A DNA stretch of 64,000 nt from Alphaproteobacteria bacterium (GTDB lineage: Bacteria > Pseudomonadota > Alphaproteobacteria > Sphingomonadales > Sphingomonadaceae), in the NCBI GenBank assembly GCA_019232625.1, contig JAFANP010000033.1, positions 62,001 to 126,000 of the forward strand. The letters are read 5' to 3'. Below the pieces are notes generated by a model. It made no database searches and was not told the DNA's origin. It saw only the letters and a program-made list of their open reading frames with translations. This document shows positions 2,476 to 23,536 of this stretch, piece after piece. A program made the translations under genes and the position numbers. How positions within the stretch are numbered: position 1 is the first letter of the stretch; each line of letters starts with the position of its first letter.

Positions 2476-3830
2476 GCGGGGTCGGCATCGTCCACTTCGG
2501 GCCGGGCGCGTTCCACCGCGCGCACCAGGCCGATTATGTCGACCGCCTGCTCGCCGGCGACCCGCGCTGGGGCATCGCGGCGGTGTCGCTGCGCTCGCCC
2601 GGCACGATCGAAGCGTTGAGACGGCAGAAGGGGCGCTACACCCTCGCCATCCTCGACTCCGAGCCTTGCTTGCGCACCCTCGCCGCGCACCGCGCCTTCC
2701 ACGGGCCGGGGGACGCCGCCGGCGTGCGGGCGCGGCTGGCCGACCCGGCGGTGCGGATCGTCTCCTCGACGGTGACCGAGAAGGGCTATTGCCTCGCCGC
2801 CGACGGCACGCTCGACATGGGCCATGGCGACGTCGTGCGCGACCTCGCCGACCCGGAGCATCCGATCAGCCTCGTCGGCTGGCTGGCGCTCGGCCTCGCC
2901 GACCGCCGCGCCGCCGGGCTCCCGGCCTTCACGCCTTTGTGCTGCGACAACATGGTCGCGAACGGCCGGAAGCTGCGCGCCGCGGTGATCGCTTTTGCGG
3001 GGCGGATCGACCCGGAGCTGGCGGCGTGGATCGGGGGCGAGGCCGTCTTCCCCGACACGATGGTCGATTCGATCACCCCCGCGACCGACTCGCGCCTCCT
3101 CGCACTGGTCCGGGAAAGGGGGCTGGACGATTCCATTCCGGTCAGCCGCGAGGCCTATTCCGAATGGGTGGTGGAGGACGTGCTGCCGCCCGGCTCGCCG
3201 GACCTGGCCGCCGCCGGCGCAACCCTCGCCGCCGACGTCGGCGCCTGGGAGAAGGCCAAGCTGCGCCTCCTCAACGGCGCCCATTCCAGCCTCGCCTATC
3301 TCGGCCTGCTGCTCGGCCACGAGACGGTTGCCGAGGCGATGGCCGACTCCGACCTCGCCGGCTTCGTCGAGCGGCTGGTGAGGGAGGACGTGATCCCGTC
3401 GCTCACCCCCTCCCCGCTCGACCTCCAGGCCTATGCCGGCGAGATATTGGAGCGCTTCCGCAACCCCGCGATAGGCCACAGGCTGTCGCAGATCGCCTGG
3501 GACGGGACCCAGAAGCTGCCCTACCGGCTGCTCGACACGGTCGCCGACGCGCTCGCCGCCGGCCGCGGCGTCGCCCGCCTCGCCGTCCCGGTGGCGGCGT
3601 GGATGCTGTTCGTCGAGCGCCAGGCCCGGGCCGGAGCGGAGATCGTCGACCCGCTGGCGCCGCGGCTCGCAGAGATAGGCCGGGAAGCGAATGCCGCCGA
3701 GGGGCTTCTGGCGCTCGGCGAGGTCTTCCCGCCGTCGCTGGCCGGGCCGGGCGCGTTCCGCAGCGCCGTCCTCGCCGCGGCGGCGCGAATGCGCGCGAAC
3801 GGCCCCCGCACGCTCCTCGCGAACCATTAG
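2472..3830 (+). CDS. uxuB: Mannitol-dehydrogenase-family reductase (fructuronate/tagaturonate reductase type)
   Basis: NAD-dependent long-chain polyol dehydrogenase of the MtlK/UxuB family, 452 residues. The N-terminal Rossmann part starts almost at the first residue (IVHFGPGAFHRAHQADY). The C-terminal catalytic half carries the family pattern KLRLLNGAHSSLAYLG, whose lysine, asparagine and histidine are the expected active-site residues. CCDNMVANGRKLR and FPDTMVDSITPAT are also family motifs. The GTG start overlaps the uxaA stop by four bases. In an operon with altronate dehydratase the expected job is tagaturonate to altronate, or fructuronate to mannonate. Sequence alone does not separate UxaB- from UxuB-type activity, so the symbol is provisional. 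Confidence 0.85.
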   Translation: MSGVGIVHFGPGAFHRAHQADYVDRLLAGDPRWGIAAVSLRSPGTIEALRRQKGRYTLAILDSEPCLRTLAAHRAFHGPGDAAGVRARLADPAVRIVSSTVTEKGYCLAADGTLDMGHGDVVRDLADPEHPISLVGWLALGLADRRAAGLPAFTPLCCDNMVANGRKLRAAVIAFAGRIDPELAAWIGGEAVFPDTMVDSITPATDSRLLALVRERGLDDSIPVSREAYSEWVVEDVLPPGSPDLAAAGATLAADVGAWEKAKLRLLNGAHSSLAYLGLLLGHETVAEAMADSDLAGFVERLVREDVIPSLTPSPLDLQAYAGEILERFRNPAIGHRLSQIAWDGTQKLPYRLLDTVADALAAGRGVARLAVPVAAWMLFVERQARAGAEIVDPLAPRLAEIGREANAAEGLLALGEVFPPSLAGPGAFRSAVLAAAARMRANGPRTLLANH

Positions 3831-3863
3831 GTACACGGGCGGGAGGCATCGGGCCATTGCCAA

Positions 3864-3877
3864 TGACACCGGTTTCC
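3864..3877 (+). promoter_or_regulatory. Operator-like site 2 upstream of hydratase gene
   Basis: TGACACCGGTTTCC, matching site 1 (942-955) at 13 of 14 positions. It lies 39 bases upstream of the GTG at 3917 in an 86-base gap, suggesting that the downstream genes have their own LacI-controlled promoter rather than only read-through from uxaA. Confidence 0.5.
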
Positions 3878-3916
3878 TATAGGAGATTCGCAAACAGAAG
3901 ATCGAGGGGTCCTGAG

Positions 3917-4726
3917 GTGAATCTGTCGACCGACGACGCGGCGGGCATCGCCGGCCGTTTCCTTTCCGCGCGCCGCGCCGCCGGCGGCCTCGACGGCTAT
4001 CCGGGCGACTTCCCGGAGACGCTGGACGCCGCTTATGCCGTCCAGGACGAGGCGATCGCCGCCTGGGCGCGGCCGGTGGTCGGCTGGAAGGTCGGCCGCA
4101 TCAACCCGCCTCTGTCCGAGCGCTACGGGGCCGACCGGCTCGCCGGGCCGATCTTCCGCTCCAGCGTCGCCGCCGCGGGCGAGCCGCCCGAAATGCCTGT
4201 CTTCGCCGCCGGGTTCGCGGCGGGCGAGGCGGAGTTCCTGCTGCGCATCGGACGCCGCCCGCCGGCGGGCCAGACCCGCTTCACCCTGGACGAAACGGCC
4301 GACCTGATCGACGCCGTCCATGTCGGGATCGAGATAGCCAGCTCGCCGCTCGGCGCGATCAACAGGCTCGGCCCGATCGCGGTGATCTCCGACTTCGGCA
4401 ACAATAACGGCCTCGTCGTCGGTCCGGCCATCCCGGACTGGCGCGCCAGCGGGTTCGAGGACTGGCCGGTGACGACCTGGATCGACGGGGCCGAGGCCGG
4501 CACCGGCCGAGCCTCCGCCTTCCCGGACGGGGCGATCGGCGCGGCCCGCTTCCTGTTCGAGCTTATGGCCCGGCGCGGCATCGCGCTTCAGCCCGGCCAG
4601 TGGATCTCGTCGGGCGCGGTCAGCGGCGTCCACGACGCGACCGCCGGACAGACGGTGGAGGCGCGTTTCGGCGAGCTTTATTCGCTTTCGTGCAGATTGA
4701 TCGAGGCCCGTCCGGAACAAGCGTAG
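3917..4726 (+). CDS. 2-keto-4-pentenoate hydratase / FAH-family enzyme
   Basis: Member of the fumarylacetoacetate hydrolase superfamily, MhpD (2-keto-4-pentenoate hydratase) branch, 269 residues. Seen: VVGWKVGRIN, the acidic metal-binding run AGEAEFLLRIG, HVGIEIASSPL and a glycine-rich GNNNGLVVG segment, all at the spacing expected for the family. The GTG start is preceded by GAGGGGT. It sits between uronate-catabolic genes and an ExuT-like transporter under its own operator-like site, so it probably acts on a 2-keto-3-deoxy sugar acid or related 2-keto acid. The substrate is not determined by sequence. Confidence 0.85.
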   Translation: MNLSTDDAAGIAGRFLSARRAAGGLDGYPGDFPETLDAAYAVQDEAIAAWARPVVGWKVGRINPPLSERYGADRLAGPIFRSSVAAAGEPPEMPVFAAGFAAGEAEFLLRIGRRPPAGQTRFTLDETADLIDAVHVGIEIASSPLGAINRLGPIAVISDFGNNNGLVVGPAIPDWRASGFEDWPVTTWIDGAEAGTGRASAFPDGAIGAARFLFELMARRGIALQPGQWISSGAVSGVHDATAGQTVEARFGELYSLSCRLIEARPEQA

Positions 4727-6080: not shown

Positions 6081-6187
6081 CCCCTCCCTGCACGCAGGGA
6101 GGGGTTGGGGGTGGGTGCGTCTCCGAAAGACTCGCGGCCGGTGGAGACCGACCCACCCCCGGCCCCTCCCTGCGTGCAGGGAGGGGG
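6081..6187. repeat. 44-bp inverted repeat with nested palindromes
   Basis: Arm 6081-6124 and arm 6144-6187 are reverse complements at 40 of 44 positions, separated by 19 bases. Each arm begins or ends with its own palindrome of CCCCTCCCTGC and GCAGGGAGGGG around a 2-base centre. This is the layout of interspersed REP-type or small non-autonomous elements common in sphingomonads. It fills the gap between exuT and the TauE/SafE gene and could also act as an mRNA stabiliser or terminator. Confidence 0.85.
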
Positions 6188-9941: not shown

Positions 9942-10727
9942 GTGACCGACGCGGCCGCCGACTTCCTTCCCCTCGCCCACCGCCTCGCCGACGCGGCGCG
10001 GGCCGAGACCCTCGCCCGCTTCGCCGCGGGCTGCGTGGCGGACGACAAGAACGAGGGCGGGGCCTGGGATCCGGTGACCGACGCGGACCGGGAGGCCGAG
10101 ACCGCGATCCGGCGGATGATCGAGGCGGAGCATCCGGACCACGGCATCGAGGGCGAGGAGCATGGGGCGCGGCGGGGCTCGGGCCGCTGGGGCTGGAGCC
10201 TCGACCCGGTCGACGGCACCCGCGCCTTCGTCTGCGGGCTTCCGAGCTGGACGACCCTGATCGCGCTGCTCGACGAGGGACGGCCCGTGCTCGGCCTGAT
10301 CGACGCGCCGGCGCTCGACGAGCGCTACGTCGCAGCGCCGGGCTCGGGGCTCCTCCACAGGGCCGGCGGCGCCGCGCCGCTAAAGGCTCGCGGCTGCACG
10401 GCGCTGGCCGAGGCGCGGCTGTCGACGACCGACCCCTATCTCTTCCGGGGCGAGGAGGGCGAGGCCTGGGAGCGGGTGCGCGGCCGGGTCCGCACCGTCC
10501 GCTACGGCCTCGACGCCTACGGCTATGCCCGCCTCGCCGCCGGCTCGATCGACCTCGTGATGGAGGCGGGGCTGAAGCCGCACGATTACAATGCGCTGAT
10601 CCCGGTCGTCCGCGCCGCCGGCGGGGCGATCGGCGACTGGCGGGGCGGCCAGGACTACGAAGGCGGCCGGATCGTCGCGGCGGCGACCCCGGCCCTGTTC
10701 GAGGCGGCGCTCGAGGCCCTCGCCTGA
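9942..10727 (+). CDS. hisN: Histidinol-phosphatase HisN (inositol-monophosphatase family)
   Basis: Hydrolyses L-histidinol phosphate to histidinol, the penultimate stage of histidine synthesis. 261 residues with IMPase-family metal motifs: DPVTDADREAE, a GEEHG glutamate motif, DPVDGTRAF and KPHDYNALIPVVRAAGG. The last fits the HisN subgroup better than inositol phosphatases. GTG start at 9942 with CAGGGCG just before. It is convergent with the his operon 110 bases away, which lacks any other histidinol-phosphatase, supporting the assignment. Confidence 0.88.
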   Translation: MTDAAADFLPLAHRLADAARAETLARFAAGCVADDKNEGGAWDPVTDADREAETAIRRMIEAEHPDHGIEGEEHGARRGSGRWGWSLDPVDGTRAFVCGLPSWTTLIALLDEGRPVLGLIDAPALDERYVAAPGSGLLHRAGGAAPLKARGCTALAEARLSTTDPYLFRGEEGEAWERVRGRVRTVRYGLDAYGYARLAAGSIDLVMEAGLKPHDYNALIPVVRAAGGAIGDWRGGQDYEGGRIVAAATPALFEAALEALA

Positions 10728-10743
10728 GTTGAGCCAAGCGATG

Positions 10744-10819
10744 CCGTTCGGGCTGAGCTTGTCGAAGCCCTCCTTTCCCTTTTGAGAAGAAGGCCCTTCG
10801 ACAGGCTCAGGGCGAACGG
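10744..10819. repeat. Imperfect inverted repeat between hisN and hisIE
   Basis: Arms 10744-10767 and 10796-10819 are complementary at 21 of 24 positions with a 28-base loop. The arm contains CTGAGCTTGTCGAAG, a sequence I know as a widespread bacterial interspersed palindrome. It lies between two convergent genes and may serve as a bidirectional terminator. Confidence 0.75.
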
Positions 10820-10839
10820 TGAAGGCGGTCCGGCCCAGA

Positions 10840-11472
10840 TTAGCCTGGGTGGCGGCGGCGGAGGACGGCGACAACCTCGTCCCAGCCGAACCCCTTCGCC
10901 TCCATCAGCACGGCGAGGTGATAGAGGAGGTCGGCCGCCTCTTCGGCGCAGCCCGCCGAGTCGCGGGTGACGGCGGCGAGGGCGAGCTCGACCCCCTCCT
11001 CCCCGACCTTCTGCGCGATCCGCGCGGGCCCTTCGGCGATGAGGCGGGCGGTGTAGCTCTCGGCCGGGTCCGCTTGTGCCCGCTCCGCCACGATGCGGGA
11101 GAGCAAGGCGAGCCAGCCGGGGCCGTGCGGCTCGCCGCCGAAGCAGCTTCGCGCGCCGGTGTGGCAGGTCGGCCCTTCCGCATAGGCTCGGACGAGCAGC
11201 GCGTCGCCGTCGCAATCCTCGTGCACCGAGGCGACGCGCAGGCGGTTGCCGCTGGTCTCGCCCTTCCGCCACAGCCGCCCCTTCGAGCGGCTGAAGAAGG
11301 TCGCGTAGCCGCTCTCCAGGGTCGCGGCGAGCGCGTCGCGGTCCATGTAGCCGAGCATCAGCAGCTCGCCGCTCAAGGCGTCCTGCACGGCGGCGGGCAG
11401 CAGCCCCTCCATCTTCCCCCAGGCGAGGGCGTCGACGCCGGACGGCGTCAGCGGCGGATTTCGATCCCGCAT
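10840..11472 (-). CDS. hisIE: HisIE: phosphoribosyl-AMP cyclohydrolase / phosphoribosyl-ATP pyrophosphatase
   Basis: Bifunctional enzyme for steps 2 and 3 of histidine synthesis, 210 residues. HisI domain (about 1-110): [26 protein letters not shown] and CHTGARSCF, with the zinc/magnesium-binding Cys, Asp and His residues. HisE domain (about 120-208): [29 protein letters not shown]. Last gene of the his operon; its ATG overlaps the end of hisF by 25 bases. HisI-HisE fusion is known in many bacteria. Confidence 0.95.
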
Positions 11473-12215
11473 CGGGCGAGATACTCCTTGAGCTCGGGGA
11501 TGGGGATCAGACGGTCGTGGAAGACGGTGGCGGCAAGCGCCCCGCTCGCGCCGGTCTCTACGAAGGCGTCGCGGAAATGGGCCGGCGCGCCCGCGCCCCC
11601 GGACGCCACGACCGGCACCGGCACCGCCTCCACCACGGCCCGGGTATGGAGGAGGTCGTAGCCGCCGCGCACGCCGTCGCGGCGCATGCAGTTGAGGACG
11701 ATCTCGCCGGCGCCGCGCTCCACCGCCTCGCGCACCCAGTCGAGCGTCGAGCGGCCGGAGTCGCGCGTCGACTCGGGGGAGCCGGTATATTGCTTGACCC
11801 GGTAGCCGCCGCCCTCCGCGAAGCTGTCGACGCCGAGCACGACGCACTGGCTACCGAAGTCGCGGGCGAGCGAGTCGATCAGCGCCGGCCGCTCCAGCGC
11901 CGGGGAGTTGATCGAGACCTTGTCGGCGCCGGCCTCGAGGCAGGCGGCGGCCTGGTCGCGGCTGCGGATTCCGCCGGCGACGGCGAAGGGTATGTCGATC
12001 ACCCGGGCGACGCGCCGCACCCATTCCAGGTCGAGGCCGCGGCCCTCGCTGCTCGCCGAGATGTCGTAGAAGACCAGCTCGTCGGCGCCTTCCTCCCGGT
12101 AGCGCAGGGCATGCTCGACGATGTCGCCGACGTCGCGATGGTCGCGGAAGCGGATGCCCTTGACCACCCGGCCGTCCCTGACGTCGAGGCAGGGGATGAT
12201 CCTACGCGCAGGCAC
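11448..12215 (-). CDS. hisF: Imidazole glycerol phosphate synthase cyclase subunit HisF
   Basis: Cyclase half of the HisH-HisF complex, a (beta/alpha)8 barrel that uses ammonia from HisH to form IGP and AICAR. 255 residues from a GTG at 12215. Catalytic aspartates are visible in [14 protein letters not shown] (start) and VLGVDSF (middle). Barrel phosphate-binding loops VAGGIRS and VASGGAG are present. Overlaps the end of hisA by 14 bases and the start of hisIE by 25. No missing residues noted. Confidence 0.96.
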
Positions 12216-12918
12216 GTATCGCCTCCGCCAGGTCGATGCGGCCCTCCCAAAGCGCCTTGCCGACGATCGCGCCGGCGGTGGGCAGGCGGATAAGGTCGCC
12301 CAGCGAGGCGACTCCGCCCGAGGCCTGGAGGGCGACCCCGGGAAGGCGCCGGGCCGCGGCATCGAGCAAGGCGAGGTTGGGGCCGGAGAGCATGCCGTCG
12401 CGCGAGACGTCGGTGACGAGGATATGGCGCGCCTCGGGATAGAGGGCGGCGATCTCCCACAGGCTGCGCCCCGAACCTTCGGTCCAGCCGCGGGTAAGGA
12501 CGAGCGGTTCTCCCGCCTCCATGCCCACGTCCAGGGCCAAGGTGATCCGCTCCGGCCCGAAGCGCTCCAGGAAGCCGCGGACCAGATCGGGGTCGGTGAC
12601 GGCGAGGCTGCCGACCGTCACCCTCTCGACCCCGGCGTCGAGAAGGCGGGCGACCTGGTCGGCGGTGCGGATCCCGCCGGCGACCTGGAGGTCGAGCGGC
12701 GCCTCGGCGGCGAGACGGGCGAGAAGGTCGTGCTGGACCGGCACCCCCGCCCGCGCGCCGTCGAGGTCGACGACATGGGCCCAGGCCGCGCCGGAGGCGG
12801 CGAAGCCGGCGAGCGCCTCGGCCGGATCGGCCGGATAATGGGTAGCCTCGTCGAACCGGCCCTGCGCCAGTCGGACGACCCGGCCGCCCATCAGGTCCAT
12901 GGCGGGATAGAGGATCAT
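12202..12918 (-). CDS. hisA: ProFAR isomerase HisA
   Basis: Isomerises ProFAR to PRFAR, step 4 of histidine synthesis. 238-residue barrel starting [17 protein letters not shown], with the catalytic Asp in AMDL; other motifs are [29 protein letters not shown] and [15 protein letters not shown] 12918 overlaps the hisH stop by four bases (ATGA). Confidence 0.96.
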
Positions 12919-13499
12919 GCGGCGAGGAAGGCCCGGAGGAAGCGGGCGCCCGCCTCCCCCGAGCGCTCGGGGTGGAACTGGGCGCCGATGAAATTGCGGT
13001 GCCGGACGACCGCCGGGACGGTCCGCCCGTAGTCGGCCGCGGCGAGGGTCGAGCCGCCGGGGTCCGCGGCGAAGCTGTGGGCGAAGTAGACATAGTCGCC
13101 GTCGACGAGGCCGAGGACCGGCGCCGCCATGGCGAGACGGCTCCAGCCCATGTGCGGCACCGGCCGGCCGGGCGCCGGCGCCAGCCGCCGCACCCGGCCG
13201 GGGATAAGGCCGAGCCCCGGCGCGCCGTCCTCCTCGCTCGCCTCGAACAGGAGCTGCATGCCGAGGCATATGCCGAGGACGGGCCGGACGAGGCCGCGCA
13301 GCGTCTCGTGCAGGCCCCGGGCGCGGACCTGCTCCATGGCGTAGCCGGCGGCGCCCACGCCGGGGAGGATCACCCGGTCCGCTGCGGCGATGGCGGCGGG
13401 GTCGGCGGTGATCGCGGCGGCGAGGCCGAACCGTTCCAGGGCTATCCCCACAGAGCCGACATTGCCGCAGCCGAGGTCGACGACCGCGACGCCGCTCAC
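12915..13499 (-). CDS. hisH: Imidazole glycerol phosphate synthase glutaminase subunit HisH
   Basis: Class I glutamine amidotransferase that supplies ammonia to HisF. 194 residues from GTG 13499. Nucleophile motif GICLGMQLLFEAS with the catalytic Cys, oxyanion strand ILPGVGAAGYAM, and the His/Glu of the triad in GAQFHPERSG. The GTG overlaps the hisDCB stop by four bases (GTGA), indicating translational coupling. Confidence 0.96.
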   Translation of the reverse strand: MSGVAVVDLGCGNVGSVGIALERFGLAAAITADPAAIAAADRVILPGVGAAGYAMEQVRARGLHETLRGLVRPVLGICLGMQLLFEASEEDGAPGLGLIPGRVRRLAPAPGRPVPHMGWSRLAMAAPVLGLVDGDYVYFAHSFAADPGGSTLAAADYGRTVPAVVRHRNFIGAQFHPERSGEAGARFLRAFLAA

Positions 13500-16492
13500 A
13501 GCACGCCCTTGGTGCTTGGGACGCCGTCGCCGGCGGCCTCGCGGGCCAACGCCTGGCGGAGTGCCCGGCCGAAGGCCTTGAAGGCGGCCTCGGTCTTGTG
13601 ATGATCGTTCTCGCCGGTCACCCGGACGTGGATGGCGGCGCCGAGGCTCTCGGCGAGGGAGCGGAAGACGTGCGGCGTCATCTCGGTGGCGTAGGCGCCG
13701 ATATGGCTCGCCTCGAACCGCCCCTCGAAGGCGGCGTAGGGCCGGCCGGAGAGATCGACGAGGACATGCCCCTCGGCCTCGTCCATCGGCAGCGAGAAGC
13801 CGAAGCGGCCGATGCCGCGCCGGTCGCCGAGCGCCCGCGCCAGCGCCTGGCCAAAAGCGAGGGCGCAATCCTCGACGCTGTGGTGGGCGTCGATGTCGAG
13901 ATCCCCCTCGCAGGAGAGGAGCAGGGAGAAGCCGCCATGGGCTGCGACCTGGTCGAGCATGTGGTCGAAGAAGGGGATTCCGGTGGCGATGCGGCGCGGC
14001 GCGGGGCGGTCGAGGTCGACGGCGACCGCGATTCGCGTCTCCTTCGTCTCGCGCACCAGCTCGGCGCGGCGGGCGGCCGCCCTCCCCTCACCCACGCCGA
14101 ACGCCGCCAGCGCCGCCTCGTTTTCCGCCTCGCTGCCGACGGTGAGGCGCAGGCCGCCGGGCGCGGCATTGGGGCGAAAGCGGACTCGTATGCCGAGCCC
14201 GCGCAGCCGCGCGGCGAGCGCCTCGGGCGCCTCCACCTCGAGGAAGAGGAAGTTGCCGCCGCCGCTCCTGACGCTGCGCACCCCGGGCGCGGCGGCGAGA
14301 CGCGCCGCCATCCGCCCGCGCTCCGCCTTGATCCGCCGGACCCGCTCGTCGTGGACGATCCTGCGCGCCGGCGCCAGCGCCGCCAGCCCCGCCTCGATCG
14401 AGAGGCTGGGCAGCGGATAAGGCGGCAGCGCCCGCGCCGCCACCGCGACCAGCTCCGGCGCGGCGACCAGCGCGCCCACCCGCGCCCCGGCGAGGCCATA
14501 GGCCTTGGACAGGGTCTTGAGCACGACGAGGTTGGGCCGCCGCATCGCCTCGGCGGCGAGGCTCGGCGTGTCGGAAAAGTCGAGATAGGCCTCGTCGACG
14601 ACGACGATCGTCTCGGGCAGCGCCCCGGCGACGCGGAGCAGGTCGTCCGGATCGATCACGTCGCCAGTCGGATTGTTGGGCGAGCAGAGGAAGGCGAGCT
14701 TGAGCGACGGCTCATCGGCGACGGCGGCGAGGAAGACGTCGGGATCGAACCGGAATCCGGCCTCGAGCTCGACCTCCTTGACCCTCGCGCCCTGAAGCGC
14801 GGCGAAATGGGCGTAGGCGGAGAAAGTGGGGGTGCAGACGGCGACCGCGTCGAGGGCCGGCCGGCAGAAGGCGCGGACGAGGATGTCGATGGCGTCGTCC
14901 GCGCCGCGGGTGACGGCGAGTGAGTCCTGAGTGACGCCCCACAGAGCCGCCATCGCCTGCTTGAGCCGCGCGGGCTGCGGCTCCGGATAGCGGTTGAGCC
15001 CGGCGGCGAGGCTGCCGTCGCTGAGTGGCGGATAGGGGTTTTCGTTGGCGTCGAGGCGGATGGCGTCGGGGCCGAACGCGTCGTTGGCGTTGGCGGCGAT
15101 GTCGAACGGCGCCAGCGCGAGGATTTCGGGACGGGCGAGCCTTTCGATGCCGGAGCCGGCGCGGCCCAGGGCGGGGTCTTCCGCCGGCCCCTCCGCCGCG
15201 GGCAGGATGGAGAGGCGGGCGTCGGCGGCGCGGGCGTGCGCCTCGAGCCCTTCGAGCCGCGCCAGGATTGCGGCCGGCGCGGCGACCCGGGCTGCGGCGG
15301 CCGCGGTCACCGTCTGCACGCTCATCGCCTTCAGGAAGCTGTGCACCGAGACTCCGCTCCACGCCCGGGCGGCGCCGTCCGTGGGAAGGACGTGGCTGGA
15401 GCCGGCGAGATAGTCGCCGAACGTCTCGGCCGCCGCCGGCCCGGCGAACACCGCCCCGGCGTTGCGGATCCCGGCGACGAGCGGCTCGGCGTCGGCCACG
15501 GCCAGCGAGAGATGCTCGGGCGCATAGGCGTTGGCGATCTCAACCGCCTGCGCCAGATCGGCGGCGAGGATGAGCCGCGCCTCCGCCAGGGAGGCCCGGG
15601 CGGCCTCGCGCCTCGGCAGGGAGGCGAGCTGGCGCGTCACCTCCGCCTCGACCCGATCGCGCAGCGGGGCCGACGGGGTGACGAGCAGCACCTGCGCCGC
15701 GGCGTCGTGCTCGGCCTGGCTCAGCAGGTCGGCGGCCACGGTGGAGGCGTCGGCGCCTTCGTCGGCGATCACCATCAGCTCGCTCGGCCCGGCGGGCATG
15801 TCGATCGCCGGCCCGCCCGCCATGGCGGCGACCGCGGTCTTCGCCTCGGCGACCCAGGCATTGCCCGGGCCGCATATCTTGTCGACCCGCGGGATGTCCC
15901 CCGCCCCGAAGGCCAGAGCCGCGATCGCCTGGGCGCCGCCGACGGTCCACACCGCCTCGATTCCGCAGAGCCGGGCGGCCAAGGCGACGAGGGGATCGAG
16001 GCCGCCGTCAGGCCGCGGCGGCGTCACCGCCACCAGCTCCCCCACCCCGGCCGCGCGGGCCGGGAGCGCGAGCATGAGCAGGGTCGAGAAAAGCGGCGTG
16101 CGGCCGCCCGGTATGTAGAGGCCGACGCGGTCGATCGGCCGCCACAGCTTGCGGACGACGAGACCCGGGACGGTCTCGACTCGATGCTCGCGCGGCAGGC
16201 TCCCTTCGTGGAAGGCGGCGACGTTGCGCGCCGCCATCTCCACCGCCTCGCGCTGCGCGAGGGAGAGGAGGCGCCTGGCCTCCGCCGCGACCGGCGCGAC
16301 GTCGACCCGCCTCGGCGGCGACCCGTCCAGCCGCTCCGCCTGCTCGCAGAGCCCTTCCCACCCCCGCTCGCGCACGTCGGCAAGGATCTGCCTCACCGCC
16401 GCCTGAAGCGTCGGATCGCGCCGCTGCGGCGGCCGCGCCAGCGCCTCCGCGCGCGCGGCGGCGTCGAGCCCGTTCCAGTCGACCCGCCTCAC
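13496..16492 (-). CDS. hisDCB: HisD-HisC-HisB triple fusion (histidinol dehydrogenase / histidinol-P aminotransferase / IGP dehydratase)
   Basis: One open frame of 998 residues from GTG 16492 carries three histidine enzymes in order. HisD, about 1-430: YIPGG, DKICGPGN (204-211), the catalytic pair E326-H327, and metal ligands Q259, H262, D360 and H419, which coincide with E. coli HisD numbering. HisC, about 448-800: DANENPYP, SPNNPTG (604-610), D633, Y636 and PLP lysine K663 in TLSKAYGLAGARVG. HisB, about 803-998: DAHHSVED (868-875) and ENDHHKTEAA (961-970). All active-site motifs are intact. No ATG, GTG or TTG is seen at the HisD-HisC junction (codons about 428-455). GTG codon 800 could start HisB separately. 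The start overlaps hisG and the stop overlaps hisH by four bases each. Confidence 0.9.
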   Translation of the reverse strand: MRRVDWNGLDAAARAEALARPPQRRDPTLQAAVRQILADVRERGWEGLCEQAERLDGSPPRRVDVAPVAAEARRLLSLAQREAVEMAARNVAAFHEGSLPREHRVETVPGLVVRKLWRPIDRVGLYIPGGRTPLFSTLLMLALPARAAGVGELVAVTPPRPDGGLDPLVALAARLCGIEAVWTVGGAQAIAALAFGAGDIPRVDKICGPGNAWVAEAKTAVAAMAGGPAIDMPAGPSELMVIADEGADASTVAADLLSQAEHDAAAQVLLVTPSAPLRDRVEAEVTRQLASLPRREAARASLAEARLILAADLAQAVEIANAYAPEHLSLAVADAEPLVAGIRNAGAVFAGPAAAETFGDYLAGSSHVLPTDGAARAWSGVSVHSFLKAMSVQTVTAAAAARVAAPAAILARLEGLEAHARAADARLSILPAAEGPAEDPALGRAGSGIERLARPEILALAPFDIAANANDAFGPDAIRLDANENPYPPLSDGSLAAGLNRYPEPQPARLKQAMAALWGVTQDSLAVTRGADDAIDILVRAFCRPALDAVAVCTPTFSAYAHFAALQGARVKEVELEAGFRFDPDVFLAAVADEPSLKLAFLCSPNNPTGDVIDPDDLLRVAGALPETIVVVDEAYLDFSDTPSLAAEAMRRPNLVVLKTLSKAYGLAGARVGALVAAPELVAVAARALPPYPLPSLSIEAGLAALAPARRIVHDERVRRIKAERGRMAARLAAAPGVRSVRSGGGNFLFLEVEAPEALAARLRGLGIRVRFRPNAAPGGLRLTVGSEAENEAALAAFGVGEGRAAARRAELVRETKETRIAVAVDLDRPAPRRIATGIPFFDHMLDQVAAHGGFSLLLSCEGDLDIDAHHSVEDCALAFGQALARALGDRRGIGRFGFSLPMDEAEGHVLVDLSGRPYAAFEGRFEASHIGAYATEMTPHVFRSLAESLGAAIHVRVTGENDHHKTEAAFKAFGRALRQALAREAAGDGVPSTKGVL

Positions 16493-17379
16493 AGCATCAT
16501 CTTTTCGATCGGCACGACGAGGATCGCCGAGGCGCCGGCCTGCTTCAGCGCCTGCAGAGTCTCCCAGAAGACCGATTCCTGGCAGACGGCGTGGACCGCG
16601 AAATGTCCGGGCCGGCCGTGGAGCGGGAGAATGGTCGGCGCCTCCGCCCCGGGCAGCAGGTCGGTGATCCGCTTCAGCGCCTCCCCGGAGGCGTTGAGCA
16701 TGATATATTTGGAATCGCGCGTGGCGAGGACGCCCTCGAGCCGGCTCATCAGCTGCCCGCCGAGCGCCGCGGCGCCTTCGCCGGCCGGCGCGAGGGTGCG
16801 GATGAGGACCGCCTCGCTCTCGAGCACCGTCTCGACCGCGCGAAGGCCGTTCGCCTCGAGCGTCGCCCCGGTGGAGACGAGGTCGCAGACGAAGGGCGCG
16901 ATGCCGAGCCGCGGGGCGAGCTCGACCGCGCCGCTCATCTTGACGACGTCGGCCGCTATGCCCCGCCGGGCGAGGAAGTCGCGGACGATGAAAGGATAGG
17001 AGGTGGCGATGCGGGCGCCGGCGAGCGTCTCCGCGCCGTCGTAGCGCGCAGTCTCCGGGGCGGCGATGCGCAGGCTGCATCGGCCGAAGCCGAGCCGCGC
17101 CGCGACCTCGATCCGCGCGTCCGGGCGGCCGAGCACGAACTCCCGCAGCACATTCTCCCCGACGATGCCGAAATCGCAGACCCCGTCGCCGACGAAGGTC
17201 GGGATGTCGTCGTCGCGAACGAACATCAGGTCGGCGGGGAAATTCTCCACCCGGGCTGCGAGGTCGTTCTTGCCGTCCTGGATCCTGAGGCCCGCGTCGC
17301 GCAGCAGCTGCCGGCTGTAGTCGGCGAGACGCCCCGACTTCTGCAGGGCGAGGTGGAGGCGGCGGGCGTCAGCGGTCAT
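16489..17379 (-). CDS. hisG: ATP phosphoribosyltransferase HisG (long form)
   Basis: First committed step of histidine synthesis, ATP plus PRPP to phosphoribosyl-ATP. 296 residues, the long form with a C-terminal ACT-like regulatory domain (about residues 215-296, ending ILVVPIEKMML) that normally binds histidine for feedback inhibition; hence no HisZ partner is needed. Seen: LQKSGRLADYSRQLL, FVRDDDIPTFVGDGVCDFGIVGE (split across the first lobe) and the PRPP loop DLVSTGATLEANGL. Preceded by and overlapping the TrpR-like regulator gene by 11 bases. Confidence 0.95.
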   Translation of the reverse strand: MTADARRLHLALQKSGRLADYSRQLLRDAGLRIQDGKNDLAARVENFPADLMFVRDDDIPTFVGDGVCDFGIVGENVLREFVLGRPDARIEVAARLGFGRCSLRIAAPETARYDGAETLAGARIATSYPFIVRDFLARRGIAADVVKMSGAVELAPRLGIAPFVCDLVSTGATLEANGLRAVETVLESEAVLIRTLAPAGEGAAALGGQLMSRLEGVLATRDSKYIMLNASGEALKRITDLLPGAEAPTILPLHGRPGHFAVHAVCQESVFWETLQALKQAGASAILVVPIEKMML

Positions 17380-17698
17380 CGGAGCCGGCCAGCGCGTCGA
17401 GGGCGGCCCGATAGCCGCGATTGGGCTCCTGCCGCAGGAAGCGGGCGACGCGGACGATCGTCGTCGTGCTCACCCCCGTCGCATCGTGGATGTCGCGATA
17501 GGAAAGGTCGGTGGAATCGAGCAGGCGCGCGACGTGCCAGCGCTCCGCCAGGGTGCGTATCTCGGCGGGGGTGCAGAGATCGGCGAGGAGGCGCGCCATC
17601 CCCTGCGGATCGCGCGGGGCGAGAAGCGCCGCGCACAGATCGGCGCTGAGGGCGGCGGCGTCCCGGGTCGGGCCGAGGGGAGCGGTCTGAACGGTCAT
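17369..17698 (-). CDS. YerC/TrpR-family transcriptional regulator of the his operon
   Basis: Small 109-residue protein of the Trp-repressor superfamily (YerC/YecD type). The helical core includes LADLCTPAEIRTLAERW and the helix-turn-helix YRDIHDATGVSTTTIVRVA, then FLRQEPNRGY. First gene of the his operon, overlapping hisG by 11 bases, as for the YerC regulators found with his genes elsewhere. ATG 17698 is chosen because the conserved region starts after it. An inverted repeat GTTACACCG-N8-CGATGTAAC lies 3 bases upstream of the ATG and is the obvious candidate autoregulatory operator (inference). Confidence 0.88.
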   Translation of the reverse strand: MTVQTAPLGPTRDAAALSADLCAALLAPRDPQGMARLLADLCTPAEIRTLAERWHVARLLDSTDLSYRDIHDATGVSTTTIVRVARFLRQEPNRGYRAALDALAGSDDR

Positions 17699-17701
17699 CT
17701 T

Positions 17702-17727
17702 GTTACACCGTGTTAATACGATGTAAC
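17702..17727. promoter_or_regulatory. Inverted-repeat operator before the his operon
   Basis: GTTACACCG and CGATGTAAC are complementary at 8 of 9 positions around an AT-rich 8-base spacer TGTTAATA, unusual for this GC-rich region. It ends 3 bases before the regulator ATG, so binding would block the promoter or ribosome binding site of the whole his operon. Confidence 0.55.
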
Positions 17728-18548: not shown

Positions 18549-19556
18549 CTAGGATATGTCGGTATTGAGGACCACTTCCGAGACATAGCGGCGCCCGCCG
18601 GCGCGGGCGAGCTGGACGAAGACGTCGACGGTGCGCTGCACGTAGAAATGGACGTCGTCGCGTCCGAGCCGGGTGCCGGTCTGGAGGACGAGGAGCGCGA
18701 TCTGCTCGATCGCGCGCTCGGCGCTGTCGGCGTGGACGGTGGTCATCGAGCCGGGATGGCCGGTGTTGACGGCGCGGAGGAACGCATAGGCCTCCTCGCC
18801 GCGCAGCTCGCCCAGGATGATCCGGTCGGGCCGCATTCGCAGCGACGCGGCGACGAGGTCGTTGGCGGTGACCTCCCCCTCCCCCAGCCGGCTGCGCGCC
18901 GCGACCAGGCCGACGCCGTTGGCGTGGCGGAGGTGGAGCTCGGGCGTGTCCTCAATCAAGATCAGCCGCTCCTCGGCCGGTATCTCGCGGATGAGGGCGT
19001 TGAGGAAGGTGGTCTTGCCGGTCGAGGTGCCGCCGGAGATGAGGATGTTCTTGCGCGCCCGGACGGCGCTGGCGAGCATTCCGGCGACATCCCCCGCCTT
19101 GAGCTGGGCGTCGAGCGCGCGGTCGAGCGCCGCCTGCTCCTGCCCGGAGCGGGTGCGCGTCTCCGACAGGGCGCCGGAGGCGACATAGTCGGCGAGGCTG
19201 AGGTCGGTCTCGACATGCTTGCGGATCGCAAGCGCCATGGGACCGCGGGTCGCCGGCGGTGCGACGAACTGGATTCGCGCGCCGTCGGGCAGGGTGGCGG
19301 AGAGCAGGGGGTGCTCGCGGCTGATCCCCTGGTGGGTCATCGCCGCGACCTGACGGGCGAGGCGGGAGAGCATGGTGGCGTCGAGCGACGGCGCGTCGTG
19401 CCGCTCGATCCCGCCGGCCGTCGTCTCGACCCAGATCTCGCCGGGCTTGTTGACGTAGATGTCGGTGACGTCGGGCCGCGCCAGCATGCCGGTGAGCGGC
19501 GCGAGATAGGCCCTCAGGTAGACGCCTGGAACGTCCTCCGCGGGGATGACGCTCAT
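18549..19556 (-). CDS. virB11: T4SS ATPase VirB11
   Basis: Hexameric secretion ATPase at the cytoplasmic face of the type IV secretion channel, 335 residues. N-terminal domain: VTDIYVNKPGEIWVE. C-terminal RecA-like domain: Walker A ISGGTSTGKTTFLNAL around residue 180, Asp box ILIEDTPEL, Walker B region RPDRIILGELRGEEAY, His box GHPGSMTTVHADSAERAI. Last gene of the virB operon; ATG overlaps the virB10 stop (ATGA). Confidence 0.95.
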   Translation of the reverse strand: MSVIPAEDVPGVYLRAYLAPLTGMLARPDVTDIYVNKPGEIWVETTAGGIERHDAPSLDATMLSRLARQVAAMTHQGISREHPLLSATLPDGARIQFVAPPATRGPMALAIRKHVETDLSLADYVASGALSETRTRSGQEQAALDRALDAQLKAGDVAGMLASAVRARKNILISGGTSTGKTTFLNALIREIPAEERLILIEDTPELHLRHANGVGLVAARSRLGEGEVTANDLVAASLRMRPDRIILGELRGEEAYAFLRAVNTGHPGSMTTVHADSAERAIEQIALLVLQTGTRLGRDDVHFYVQRTVDVFVQLARAGGRRYVSEVVLNTDIS

Positions 19557-20689
19557 CGCCGCCTCTCGACCCCGGTGAAATCGAGGTCGCGCGCGACGAA
19601 CACGCTGATGCTGGTGGCGGCCGGCACCTTGAGGGTGGGCCGGATCTGCGTGTTCGTCGGAACCAGGCCGCTGCTGCTCGACACCGCGTTGGGGAGGAGC
19701 AGGACCTGGCCGTTGGCGCCAGAGCGGGCGGCGAGGGTGAGGCCGAGGTCGATGGTCGACTGCAGCAGCGCGCCCGCGAAACGCTCGAAGAAGTGGCTGT
19801 TGACGTTCGCCTTGACGCCGCCTCGGCCGAGCGTGTCGGTGGCCGGCGAGCCGATGGCGATGGTCACCCCGTCGGGGCGGACGAGGCGAGTCCAGTTGAC
19901 CAAGGCCCTCTTCTGCCCGGGCGCGGTGTCGGAGCGATATTCGCCGATCAAGCGGCTGCCGCGGGGGATGAGGATCCGGGTGCCGTCGAAGCCGCGTATG
20001 TCGCGCGAGACGAGGGCGCGGGCGAAGCCCGGGCGGGTCGAATCGAACGCCGTCTCCATCACCGCGGGGATGAGGGTGCCCTGCGGCACGGTGGTCGCGC
20101 GGTTGGCGAGCATGCCGGCGCGGGCGCGGGCGGCGGCGGCCGGCGTTCCGAACGAGGCGACGCTGTCGGGCCCGCCGCCGCCCGCCGCCGAGGCGCCCGC
20201 GCCGCCCGCCTCGCCGCCCGCCACCGCCGCCGTCGTGTCGACGACGAGAGCCGGGCCACCGGGCGCGCGCACCGTCTCGGGAGTCGGCACGGGCGACGGG
20301 GCGGGCTGCGGCTGCGGCTGGGGAACGTAGACGATCTGCGGCGGCGTCGGCTGCCGCCGCGGCGCGGGGGCGATCCGCACGGCGGGCGCCGGCACGGGCT
20401 GGACGACGGCGACCGGCGGCGGCGGCGCGGGCTCCGGCGGGACGTAGAGCGTCGGCGCCGGCGCGGGGGCTCCGGCGCGGTCGGAGGCGCGCGGCACCAC
20501 GGCCGGCGCCGGTTCGGTACGGCGCCGCGAATCGAGCACCAGGAACAGGACCACCGCCGCGACCACGGCGAGCGCGGCGAGCGCCGCCGGAGGCAGGCCG
20601 GAGCGGGGCGGCGCGACGACCGGGCGCACCCCGGCCTCGTCCGCGACGCCCGGCTCCGTGCGCGGGTCGATCGAGGCGCCGGCGGCCAT
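19553..20689 (-). CDS. virB10: T4SS core protein VirB10
   Basis: Energy-sensing scaffold protein spanning both membranes, 378 residues. A short cytoplasmic N-terminus and one membrane helix (ALAALAVVAAVVLFLVLD, about residues 35-52) are followed by a long proline-rich periplasmic stretch. The C-terminal TrbI/VirB10 beta-barrel domain shows VPQGTLIPAVMET, RDIRGFDGTRILIPRGSRL and an AxxSHFFERFAGALLQS region for the outer-membrane antenna. ATG 20689 shares its A with the virB9 stop (TGATG). Confidence 0.94.
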   Translation of the reverse strand: MAAGASIDPRTEPGVADEAGVRPVVAPPRSGLPPAALAALAVVAAVVLFLVLDSRRRTEPAPAVVPRASDRAGAPAPAPTLYVPPEPAPPPPVAVVQPVPAPAVRIAPAPRRQPTPPQIVYVPQPQPQPAPSPVPTPETVRAPGGPALVVDTTAAVAGGEAGGAGASAAGGGGPDSVASFGTPAAAARARAGMLANRATTVPQGTLIPAVMETAFDSTRPGFARALVSRDIRGFDGTRILIPRGSRLIGEYRSDTAPGQKRALVNWTRLVRPDGVTIAIGSPATDTLGRGGVKANVNSHFFERFAGALLQSTIDLGLTLAARSGANGQVLLLPNAVSSSSGLVPTNTQIRPTLKVPAATSISVFVARDLDFTGVERRR

Positions 20690-21393
20690 CAGCCCTTCCC
20701 CTTCGCCTTGTCGCGGGCGCGCACCGCCCGCGCCGAGCGCTTGTCGATGCGGAAGACGAGCTCGCGCGAGACATTGTCGATGACGTAGAGCTCGTCGCGC
20801 ATCATGCCGTTGACCAGCGTCTCCTTCCCCTTCTCGTCGACGCTGAACACGGCCGGGATGGCGCCCTCCCTGGGCCATTCGATATAGGTGTGGCGGCCGT
20901 CGTCGCTGATCCGCACCGGGCGCAGCGCGCGCTCGCCGCTGAGCCGGTACCGGCCGTCGACGGCGGGGCCGGCGTCGGCGCCGTCCTCCTGGTCCTGGCC
21001 CGGATATTCGAACTTCACGACATAGGCCATGGTCGAGGAGGAGGCGCCCAGCGGCGACAATTCCATCGCGTAGAGGCGGGCGTTGGTGATCACCGTCATG
21101 TTGGTCGAGGAGCCGGCCTGAAGCGCCTTGATGAACAGGCGGTCGCCGCGGCGGTTGGCGGTGACCTGCCAGGCGGCGCTGTCGCCGACCGCGACATTCT
21201 CGATCTGCTCGTCCGAGCCGAGCTCGACCGTCATCTGGTAGCCGGGCGCGAGCTCGAGCAGGACGAGCTGGCCGGGAGCGTAGCGGACCGTCTGGAGGTG
21301 CGGGTCGCCGTCGGGCGCCGGCTGCGGGCGCACCTGCGCCGCGGCGGGCGCGGCGAGCAGGAGGAACAGCAGGGCGGCGAGACGTCTCCTCAC
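20689..21393 (-). CDS. virB9: T4SS core protein VirB9
   Basis: Periplasmic core-complex component, 234 residues from GTG 21393, with a signal peptide (RRRLAALLFLLLAAPAAAQ). The N-terminal VirB9/CagX domain has LELAPGYQMTVELGSDEQI and LFIKALQAGSSTNMTVIT. The C-terminal domain has RPVRISDDGRHTYIEWP and NDNVSRELVFRID-type strands that contact VirB7/VirB10 in canonical systems. GTG overlaps the virB8 stop by four bases. No virB7 gene is visible between these tightly packed genes. Confidence 0.93.
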   Translation of the reverse strand: MRRRLAALLFLLLAAPAAAQVRPQPAPDGDPHLQTVRYAPGQLVLLELAPGYQMTVELGSDEQIENVAVGDSAAWQVTANRRGDRLFIKALQAGSSTNMTVITNARLYAMELSPLGASSSTMAYVVKFEYPGQDQEDGADAGPAVDGRYRLSGERALRPVRISDDGRHTYIEWPREGAIPAVFSVDEKGKETLVNGMMRDELYVIDNVSRELVFRIDKRSARAVRARDKAKGKG

Positions 21394-22250
21394 AGCTCGA
21401 CCTCCGGCCGCGGCGCCGCGGTCGAAACCGGGCGGGCGGGAACCGGCCCCGGCACCGGCGCCGGCGCGACGCGGCCGGGGACGACGACGGTCGAGCCCGG
21501 CGGCACGGTGACCGCCGTCGCGGCGCCGCCGGTGACGACGGTGGTCGTCGGCGCCACCTCGACGGCTGGCGGGAGCACCTCCGGGTTGCGCTGGTAGCGC
21601 AGCACCTGGAAGCCGAGCGGGTTCACGTAGCGGTCCTCGGCCGAGAGCGCGCCGGTGGTGAACCGGTAGCGGACGATCGCCGCCCACGAGCCGACCGGCG
21701 TCACCTGGCCGCCGGCGTCGCGCCGGACGGTGTCGAAGCGGACCAGCGAGACGTTGCGGCCGAGCGAGGAGACGCTCTTGACGCGCGCCTGGATGACGGT
21801 GCTGCGCGGGTAGCGCTGCAGCGGGCTTTCCGGGTTGCTCGCCTGCATCAGGCCGAGATATTCCGCCCGCGCCCGCTCCGCCGACCATAAAGACACCTTG
21901 CGATAGTCGGTCTGGACGGAGTCCACGTCGAAGCCCTCGCGGGCGATGACATATTGGACGAGGAAGGATTGGGTGAGCGCGGCGTCGGGCGCGATGCGGT
22001 CGGCGTCGAGCGGCTTCAGCGCCTGGACGTAGCCGGTCTGCCGATCGACCAGCAGGGTGTAGGGCACCACCGTCTTGAGCGGCGTCAGGACGATGAGGGC
22101 GATCGCCTCGAAAAGGGCGATGGCGACGGCGACGGCCGCGACGATCCAGGCGACGCGGCGCGACCGGCGCAGCATCTCCTGGCGATCGCGCGCCCATCCC
22201 TCGGCCTCGCCATAATAGGCGTCCACGGTCTCGCGGGTGATCTTGTTCAT
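21390..22250 (-). CDS. virB8: T4SS inner-membrane protein VirB8
   Basis: Bitopic assembly factor, 286 residues. Cytoplasmic N-terminus ITRETVDAYYGEAEGWARD, one transmembrane helix (WIVAAVAVAIALFEAIALIV, about 35-54), then the NTF2-like periplasmic VirB8 domain with LVDRQTGYVQAL, YVIAREGFD and RYRFTTGALSAEDRYVNPLGFQV. A proline/valine-rich tail of about 60 residues follows and is longer than in Agrobacterium VirB8. ATG overlaps the virB6 stop (ATGA). Confidence 0.93.
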   Translation of the reverse strand: MNKITRETVDAYYGEAEGWARDRQEMLRRSRRVAWIVAAVAVAIALFEAIALIVLTPLKTVVPYTLLVDRQTGYVQALKPLDADRIAPDAALTQSFLVQYVIAREGFDVDSVQTDYRKVSLWSAERARAEYLGLMQASNPESPLQRYPRSTVIQARVKSVSSLGRNVSLVRFDTVRRDAGGQVTPVGSWAAIVRYRFTTGALSAEDRYVNPLGFQVLRYQRNPEVLPPAVEVAPTTTVVTGGAATAVTVPPGSTVVVPGRVAPAPVPGPVPARPVSTAAPRPEVEL

Positions 22251-23536
22251 GCTGTCCTGTCCCGGCGGCCGGCGCCGGCGGACACCCGCCCGCGAGTCCG
22301 CCGCCTGTAGCTCTGGCCGAGCGGCGCCGCGTCGGGCACCCGCTCCTCGCTCCGGCCGCGCGCCGCCACCGCGTCGCCGACCCGCTGGGCGCCGAGCCGC
22401 GCCGCGGGCGGCGGCGGCGAGGCATTCTCGCGGCGCTGCGTCGCCACCACCGCCTCGGCGAGGGCGGCGGCGCGCGGCCGCTCGTCGATCCGCTCGGTCC
22501 GCGGCCCGGCGGCGCCGGCGACGGCGGCGACGACGGGCACGGCGGCGGGCTGCAGCGCCTGCGCCAGCCGCGCCGGGGCGATGCGCAGCGCTTCCGGCAG
22601 GCGGAAGCCGCGCGCCACCCGCGCCGTCGCCACCAGGGCGGCGATGAGGACGAGGACGAAGACGAGGTTGGCGGCGAGCAGCTCGATCGGCACGGTGGGC
22701 GTGGCGATGTTGGAGCGGCGCTGGGTGAGGATGACGGCGAGCCACGGCTCGAGCAGGGCCAGCTCGACTCCGAGCACTATGGCGGTGGCGAGCGCGCCGA
22801 GCGCCGCTCCGGCGACTCCGCGTATCCAGCCCTCGAACAGGCCGCGCGTGCCGTCGAAGAGGAGGAACAAGGCGAACAACGGTCCGAGCGCGAGAAGCAG
22901 CCCGGCGACGATCCGCACCGAGGCGAAGCCGGCGATGGCGCCGGTGAGATAGAGGGTGCGCGCCTGAGCGAGCATCTTGGCGTCCTGCGCCGGGTTCCAG
23001 CGCGGCCGGTCCTGGAGGTCGCGCAGCCGGGCCTGCTCGGCCGCCACCTGCGCCGGGGTCAGCCCCTCGGTCGGCCCGGCCTGCTCGACGACCTCGGGCG
23101 GCCGGCCGACGCCGCGCCAGTTGAGCTCGGCCAGCTCGTCGTCGACGCCCTGAAGGCGGGCGATCACGCCGCCGTCGGAGCCCGGCAGCCCGGCCGGCAT
23201 GCCGATATTGGCGGCGAGCTCGGCGGGGCCGCTCATCGTCACGTCGTAGGCGAGGGTGCGGAAGGCCGGCCAGCTCGTCGCCAGCGCCAGCACGACCCCG
23301 ACCTTGGCGACCGCGACCACGCCGTCGCGCGCGTCGGGTATCTGGCCGAAGAGCATGCGGTAGCCGAACATCGCGACGAACAGCGTCAGCATGCCGGTGA
23401 GCAGCAGCGAGGCGATCGAGCCGGGAGCGCTCAGCGCCTGGTAGCCGGCGGCGCCGATGGTCCGCGCGTGGCAGTCGACCGCGAGCAGCAGGCTCGACAG
23501 GAAGTTGCCCTCGGGCGCGAAGGACGGGCAGGCCAT
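22247..23536 (-). CDS. virB6: T4SS polytopic membrane protein VirB6/TrbL
   Basis: Inner-membrane channel component, 429 residues. Several hydrophobic helices are visible, in ASLLLTGMLTLFVAMFGY, VVLALATSWPAF, IVAGLLLALGPLFALFLLFDG and LLAANLVFVLVLIAALV. The family hallmark GPLFALFLLFDGTRGLFEGW is present. The C-terminal about 90 residues are cytoplasmic, Ala/Arg/Pro rich. ATG 23536 overlaps the virB4 stop by one base (TGATG). An in-frame GTG directly before it is an alternative start. Confidence 0.9.
   Translation of the reverse strand: MACPSFAPEGNFLSSLLLAVDCHARTIGAAGYQALSAPGSIASLLLTGMLTLFVAMFGYRMLFGQIPDARDGVVAVAKVGVVLALATSWPAFRTLAYDVTMSGPAELAANIGMPAGLPGSDGGVIARLQGVDDELAELNWRGVGRPPEVVEQAGPTEGLTPAQVAAEQARLRDLQDRPRWNPAQDAKMLAQARTLYLTGAIAGFASVRIVAGLLLALGPLFALFLLFDGTRGLFEGWIRGVAGAALGALATAIVLGVELALLEPWLAVILTQRRSNIATPTVPIELLAANLVFVLVLIAALVATARVARGFRLPEALRIAPARLAQALQPAAVPVVAAVAGAAGPRTERIDERPRAAALAEAVVATQRRENASPPPPAARLGAQRVGDAVAARGRSEERVPDAAPLGQSYRRRTRGRVSAGAGRRDRTA

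Follow-up and report, generated by a model that had tools for sequence, protein, structure and literature searches.

The histidine biosynthesis operon of the window analyzed here, a stretch of 64,000 nucleotides from an alphaproteobacterial genome assembled as a 66-contig draft (hereafter G000, other G numbers denoting surveyed genomes and L numbers contig stretches), carries hisD, hisC and hisB in a single open frame, here termed hisDCB. This frame very probably makes one 104-kDa polypeptide for the HisB, HisC and HisD reactions, in which the HisC-HisB join is the older one. A frame of 998 codons uniting the three enzymes had been claimed in the first-pass annotation of the sequence, and it is borne out, on the minus strand, by profile matches and conserved residues. 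That annotation had the fusion itself right and missed its two-step history, the linkers resembling repetitive extragenic palindromic (REP) sequences and the older and wider occurrence of the hisC-hisB join. The frame and its parts are the following.

13496..16492, minus strand: hisDCB, a single 998-codon frame (104.3 kDa) with a GTG start at 16492 and its stop at 13496
15203..16492, minus strand: HisD part, codons 1-430 (PF00815 24-427, TIGR00069 33-426)
15143..15202, minus strand: D-C linker, about codons 431-450, without a start codon and evolving fast
14099..15142, minus strand: HisC part, codons 451-798 (TIGR01141 454-798), with the pyridoxal phosphate (PLP) lysine K663
14075..14098, minus strand: C-B linker, about codons 799-806, from the junction comparison with relatives
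13496..14074, minus strand: HisB part, codons 807-998 (PF00475 837-978, NF002111 807-998)

The Pfam domains Histidinol_dh (24-427), Aminotran_1_2 (477-797) and IGPD (837-978) all match hisDCB well above cut-off. The HisD part is full-length, scoring 452.7 bits against TIGR00069 hisD (cut-off 243.8) and 472.1 against PF00815, and 194 of its 429 aligned residues are identical to those of E. coli HisD. The proposal that its ligands keep E. coli numbering holds as well, with Q259, H262, E326, H327, D360, E414 and H419 identical in seven of seven cases. The HisC part reaches 288.7 bits against TIGR01141 hisC in the protein scan and 292.2 in the genome scan (cut-off 276.55); it agrees with E. coli at 11 of the 13 positions checked, the other two being changes from Tyr to Phe (F463 and F557), and keeps both the PLP lysine and the substrate/phosphate arginines R671, R769 and R782. 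The positions compared in HisD and HisC are those that we take to be the active-site residues and zinc ligands of these enzymes. In the HisB part, which scores 190.4 bits against PF00475 (cut-off 27) and 231 bits against NF002111, equal to the cut-off printed for that model, the alignment shows the motifs HHSVED and HHKTE. The HisNB model NF003937 matches the fusion over its B half alone, with 265.9 bits against a cut-off of 443, and it is HisC that precedes HisB here. The whole genome of G000 contains a single IGPD match, and hence this is its sole HisB; only one HisC exceeds the family cut-off (292.2 bits, the runner-up of six matches reaching 99.5), and with all 10 candidates scored the fusion query has one match at E <= 1e-20, which contains the only HisD found.

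No in-frame ATG, GTG or TTG exists between codons 395 and 514 of hisDCB, which rules out independent initiation of HisC in G000 and agrees with the earlier opinion that a separate product was unlikely. A scan of all frames across codons 416-470 likewise returned no ATGA, GTGA or TTGA overlap motif, so that a single-base error would not restore the gene overlap seen in relatives. GTG codons are present in frame at positions 800 and 813, and the first of these had been suggested as a start for a separate HisB. This now seems unlikely, since among the 12 genus junctions where our script located the motif a GTG occupies the equivalent place only in G311, and the C-B junctions of G309, G315 and G306 contain no ATG, GTG or TTG within the scanned stretch.

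The same architecture was sought in related genomes, as had been advised, and D-C-B is found in one stop-free frame in G302, G300 and G298, at 73-75% identity to the window protein. Among the 26 genus genomes, these three and G000 are the four with D-C-B in one frame; 13 have a separate hisD, each overlapping hisCB by 4 nt, five give no match, three (G308, G310 and G312) are partial or cut by contig ends, and in G304 a single frame covers D and C, HisC being broken near an assembly gap. Relatives with separate genes had been raised beforehand as a possible objection to the fusion, and most relatives do have a separate hisD, but HisC and HisB are fused there too: they form a single stop-free frame in all relatives read except G304 (the stretch of G313 contains Ns). 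When 14 more family genomes are added to the genus, the unfused hisD and hisCB overlap by 4 nt at 25 of 27 junctions and by 1 nt at the other two (G131 and G484). The D-C junction measures 84-114 nt in 25 insert-free genomes. In the four intact fusions, all of which share an ADARL...LARPE frame at the linker, it is 127-142 nt long, and it reaches 216 and 255 nt in G309 and G316, which are unfused and carry a REP-like insert. In the six pairs among the four intact-fusion species, the ratio of nonsynonymous to synonymous substitution rates (dN/dS) is 0.03-0.28 for the D, C and B parts, and the three domains are therefore under purifying selection in the four species; for the D-C linker it is 0.53-0.70 in the three of six pairs where it can be computed, and this segment evolves nearly freely.

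HisC and HisB were joined first, and HisD was added later. In a tree of 39 rows built from the D+C+B sequences of the his protein(s) only, G302, G298 and G300 form a clade of their own (support 100) and G000 pairs with the unfused G311 (97), several deeper branches being weak (45-85). On this tree D and C were joined at least twice, and repeated joining is the simplest reading. An alternative history, in which D and C fused only once and several lineages separated them again, could draw on those weakly supported genus branches and on the linker frame common to the four intact fusions, but it conflicts with the two well-supported groupings and needs about four later splits, in every one of which a stop and a 4-nt overlap would have had to reappear, and we regard it as quite improbable. 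Under repeated joining, the ancestor would have had hisD and hisCB overlapping by 4 nt, and short sequences inserted where hisD ends, REP-like palindromes in some lineages, would have eliminated the stop and the start and put the two frames in register.

The genus palindrome has the form CCCTCCC-loop-GGGAGGGG, flanked by GGGG(G)TGGG, and often occurs as head-to-head pairs. Strict hairpins number 82 and 90 on the two strands of G000 (control 0 and 1); nine further genomes have 15-61 of them (control 0-2). The palindrome is hence a high-copy short element in head-to-head pairs and thus REP-like; the window contains a full paired copy outside the operon, recovered by the palindrome search.

6081..6186, no strand assigned: full paired REP-like copy

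Each junction was compared with 300 dinucleotide shuffles and with coding windows from the same operon. Of the five linkers that join D to C, three are REP-like in both comparisons, none of the shuffles and none of the coding windows being as good in G302 (0/174), G298 (0/176) and G304 (0/106), and the genome of G302 contains five more copies of its linker (E <= 0.01). G309 and G316 present a REP-like insert at the same joint while still unfused, with HisD lengthened, and score similarly (0 and 6 shuffles as REP-like; 0/163 and 0/159 windows). The junction of G000 has a REP score of 30, against at most 25 in the 25 insert-free junctions, and in the coding-window comparison it scores 31 against 30 for the windows (0/175 as good), which is only suggestive of a REP origin for the window's own linker. 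The remaining junctions give 23 shuffles for G311 (windows 0/174; 25 vs 24), 145 for G297 (10/179), 252 for G314 (131/183) and 298 for G315 (86/178). The Y1 transposase family includes REP-associated transposases, and a gene of this family is present in G000, G302, G300, G298, G309 and G316 and absent from G304, G053, G297, G314 and G311, that is, in six of seven genomes with an insert or fusion and in none of four without, in a set of hand-picked, related genomes.

A different fate of the fused HisC is seen in f70, the lineage of Brevundimonas-type relatives. In all six f70 HisC-HisB proteins (L171 4882-6318; L067 from 11305; and G564, G1139, G1148 and G1203, on L157, L200, L201 and L202), Leu replaces the PLP lysine (SLSLAYG instead of TLSKAYG) and the SPNNPTG loop has disappeared, and the fused HisC is therefore predicted to be catalytically dead. 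It nevertheless remains under some constraint, with dN/dS of 0.14-0.55 as against 0.05-0.16 for HisB, and a separate HisC above cut-off is present in all five f70 genomes searched. The window protein, by contrast, keeps its PLP lysine and is the only HisC above cut-off in its genome. A dead HisC part raises the question of why a fused domain is retained. In G587 the N-terminal part has no Pfam match.

The idea that the genes are in fact separate, and joined in the window only by a fault of sequencing or assembly, gains something from the 66-contig state of the draft, but it is practically refuted: the frame recurs in three other species at 73-75% identity, the overlap motif is missing in all frames, and the junction is longer than that of every insert-free relative, which does not correspond to a one-base shift. 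A more serious competitor accepts the frame and supposes that the whole chain is cut at its linkers, or that HisCB or HisB is also made from internal starts, leaving separate enzymes and a neutral fusion. In its favor, the D-C linker changes rapidly and no two species have the same one, and the GTG codons at 800 and 813, together with in-frame GTG and TTG codons in the D-C linker of G302, are potential starts; but G000 lacks any start codon around its own D-C joint, and starts before HisB are unconserved, three of 12 genus junctions having none in the scanned stretch. We consider this competitor unlikely. It is also conceivable that REP-like repeats were not causal, other indels having fused the genes and REPs having settled later in a tolerant linker. 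The linkers of G000 and G300, which are not significantly REP-like, favor such a sequence of events, but those of G302, G298 and G304 consist of REP sequence, and REPs occupy the same spot in the unfused G309 and G316, from which it follows that insertion needs no prior fusion; on balance this alternative is doubtful, though it deserves to be taken seriously.

Several observations weigh against the reading of hisDCB as a single working polypeptide born, in part, through REP-like insertions. The case is known here from DNA sequence alone, and the in-frame GTG and TTG codons of G302 make a second start possible in that species. The fusion in G304 is uncertain because of its broken HisC, and its score of only 18 in the junction comparison is due to a junction trimmed to 25 nt. 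For the window's own linker a REP origin is insecure, 39 shuffles out of 300 being as good, and the G300 linker fails as REP-like, with 117 of 300 shuffles and 20/175 coding windows as good; the coding-window control is moreover lenient, unfused G311 also beating all its windows. Finally, the dead HisC of f70 indicates that fusion does not guarantee activity.

In histidine biosynthesis the enzymes act in the order HisB, HisC, HisN, HisD, so that the fusion unites steps 6, 7, 9 and 10 and omits step 8. If the polypeptide is made whole with all its activities working, its HisB part would carry out the dehydration of imidazole glycerol phosphate, its HisC part the transamination and its HisD part the two final oxidations, with HisN, as a separate protein, performing the step between HisC and HisD. 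A separate HisN had been anticipated, and its gene is present at 9942-10727 on the plus strand. Structures of IGPD relatives (7oj5 and 6ezm) comprise 24 chains per entry, and the HisB part might form the usual Mn-dependent 24-mer core and display HisC and HisD around it. The likeliest arrangement seems to us to have HisB at the core, HisC and HisD on the exterior and a fixed 1:1:1 dosage, in which case the gain would lie mainly in fixed stoichiometry and co-assembly; substrate channelling is possible, but would be hindered by the absent HisN. It is only tentatively, and with somewhat less than even confidence, that we extend this into a general proposal, namely that REP-like palindromes, through repeated landing at overlaps of translationally coupled genes, may act as gene-fusion agents that make one multi-enzyme out of neighboring genes, that here they may have added HisD to an older HisC-HisB fusion to give a particle with a HisB core bearing HisC and HisD, and that a fused HisC may outlive catalysis as a structural part, the Brevundimonas-type proteins without the PLP lysine being an example.

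Related compact his operons share the HisC-HisB fusion, which has a patchy distribution in the rest of the Alphaproteobacteria. The surveys used one query and mostly two scored candidates per genome, so that weak or divergent fusions may be missed. A single HisC-HisB frame appears in eight relatives among 298 genomes of the family and in at least 20 among 296 of the order, three of them in a second family, f2. The class survey (385 genomes, threshold 1e-95) yields eight such frames and two f70 proteins with a shortened HisC. At the level of the phylum (398 genomes, threshold 1e-88) there is one further case (G1206), along with five f70 proteins. In this last survey, matches spanning HisD and HisC outside G000 contain stops, with the exception of G989. 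A D-C fusion suggested there by a stop-free match over 1-494 was rejected, this protein being a HisD with a C-terminal extension whose next his match is HisB; no HisC match was found in the stretch. The extension in G989 (L231) is stop-free, measures about 100 residues and lies directly before hisB. In the best 80 of 585 named contigs, HisC-HisB occurs as a single frame in metagenome-assembled genomes (MAGs) of an alphaproteobacterium (L066), a Brevundimonas (L067) and a member of the Bacteroidales (L070). The last, at L070 8930-10576, is a 548-aa frame in a MAG whose HisD and HisB group with Bacteroidota in trees, and is probably an independent fusion. The same sample includes stop-free HisD-HisC frames in a Maribacter MAG (L040, about 10001-12316) and a Rubrivivax MAG (L069, about 1832-4141), which were found in one MAG each and may be errors.

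An open-frame figure of 1262 suggested a D-N-C-B fusion in G634. This too was rejected, since HisD ends there at codon 429 and hisN is a gene of its own. In both G634 and G317 a hisN of the inositol-monophosphatase type lies between hisD and hisCB (L160 7138-7938 and L161 7677-8498). HisG is also missing in all 11 near-complete his-less genomes of the same lineages that were tested (G129, G186, G229, G301, G305, G124, G197, G238, G274, G412 and G419), the positive control G053 being found. With neither a fusion match nor HisG, histidine synthesis looks lost in these 11 genomes, which are likely to be histidine auxotrophs.

The operon of the window reads hisR-hisG-hisDCB-hisH-hisA-hisF-hisIE, with hisN convergent beyond it. 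Eight f1 relatives share this order, hisN not being adjacent in every one, and the hisR-like gene keeps its position in relatives. The operator proposed in front of it is weak, shuffled windows also matching the motif in 13 of 100 cases.

17701..17720, minus strand: possible HisR operator just before the hisR ATG, a palindrome with three mismatches to the published proteobacterial motif
17369..17698, minus strand: hisR-like TrpR-family (YerC/TrpR) gene, first of the operon (PF01371, 67.1 bits; TIGR02531 yecD_yerC, 50 vs 42.2)
16489..17379, minus strand: hisG, long form (PF01634, PF08029, TIGR00070, TIGR03455), overlapping hisDCB by 4 nt
12915..13499, minus strand: hisH (TIGR01855, 190.2 bits vs 105.4), overlapping hisDCB by 4 nt (GTGA)
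12202..12918, minus strand: hisA (TIGR00007, 202.8 bits, below the cut-off of 228.95)
11448..12215, minus strand: hisF, GTG start assumed (TIGR00735, 317 bits vs 294.55)
10840..11472, minus strand: hisIE, ATG start assumed (NF002747, 243.4 bits vs 187, scored on the longer frame 10840-11847)
9942..10727, plus strand: hisN, inositol-monophosphatase type, convergent with hisIE (PF00459; TIGR02067, 271.6 bits, just below 275.15)

Type IV secretion genes of the VirB8, CagX/VirB9, TrbI/VirB10 and T2SSE/VirB11 kinds adjoin the operon on the minus strand (18549-22745). As for the origin of the operon, quick trees with Shimodaira-Hasegawa-like approximate likelihood ratio (SH-aLRT) support only place the HisD of compact operons (99) in a different group from that encoded by scattered genes in the same family (99), without nesting the former inside the Gammaproteobacteria, and the fused alphaproteobacterial HisB in one branch with gammaproteobacterial HisNB (97), in a tree that has no scattered family HisB as control. 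Replacement by a transferred operon in which HisC was substituted for the HisN part would fit these trees.

How fusions shape pathways is classically illustrated by the his pathway, to whose fusions HisC-HisB, which is wide in some Alphaproteobacteria and appears once in a Bacteroidales MAG, and HisD-HisC-HisB can be added. Since sister species stand at different stages (overlap, overlap with REP, in-frame REP linker and decayed linker), the birth of a gene fusion becomes directly testable here. The 'trifunctional' his protein of corals was considered as a D-C-B candidate and set aside, its description, in the part consulted, being that of the HIS4 type (steps 2, 3, 9 and 10). The term 'hisDCB' also occurs in Corynebacterium and other papers, presumably as a name for neighbouring genes. 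The first-pass annotation held D-C-B to be unlike known his fusions, in agreement with the lists consulted: the five fusions in that of PMC1963479 involve hisA, B, D, E, F, H, I and N and no hisC, and hisC is not among the seven fused genes in that of PMC10138114. Fungal HIS4 (HisI-HisE-HisD), HisIE and HisHF resemble hisDCB in carrying several his enzymes per chain with a variable linker, as the consulted text of PMC1963479 has it, but join other enzymes, without HisC. The GTAG/CGTC REPs are similarly short GC-rich palindromes in head-to-head pairs and many copies, sometimes within coding regions, and the sections of PMC3733652 consulted describe no enzyme fusion made by them; the elements reported here lie instead at the joint of two enzymes, and are likened to them by palindrome, pairing and copy number, not by tag. 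A close counterpart of the HisC-HisB join is the bifunctional HisNB of the E. coli type, which also has a C-terminal IGPD behind another his enzyme and the same surrounding gene order, but its N-terminal partner is a HAD-type phosphatase, whereas here it is HisC (and HisD). The operon as a whole matches the compact hisGDC(NB)HAF(IE) type with hisR first in its order, overlaps, long HisG and leading TrpR-family gene, as far as the consulted part of PMC9413887 describes it, and differs from it in that three genes have become one and HisN is a separate enzyme of the inositol-monophosphatase type.

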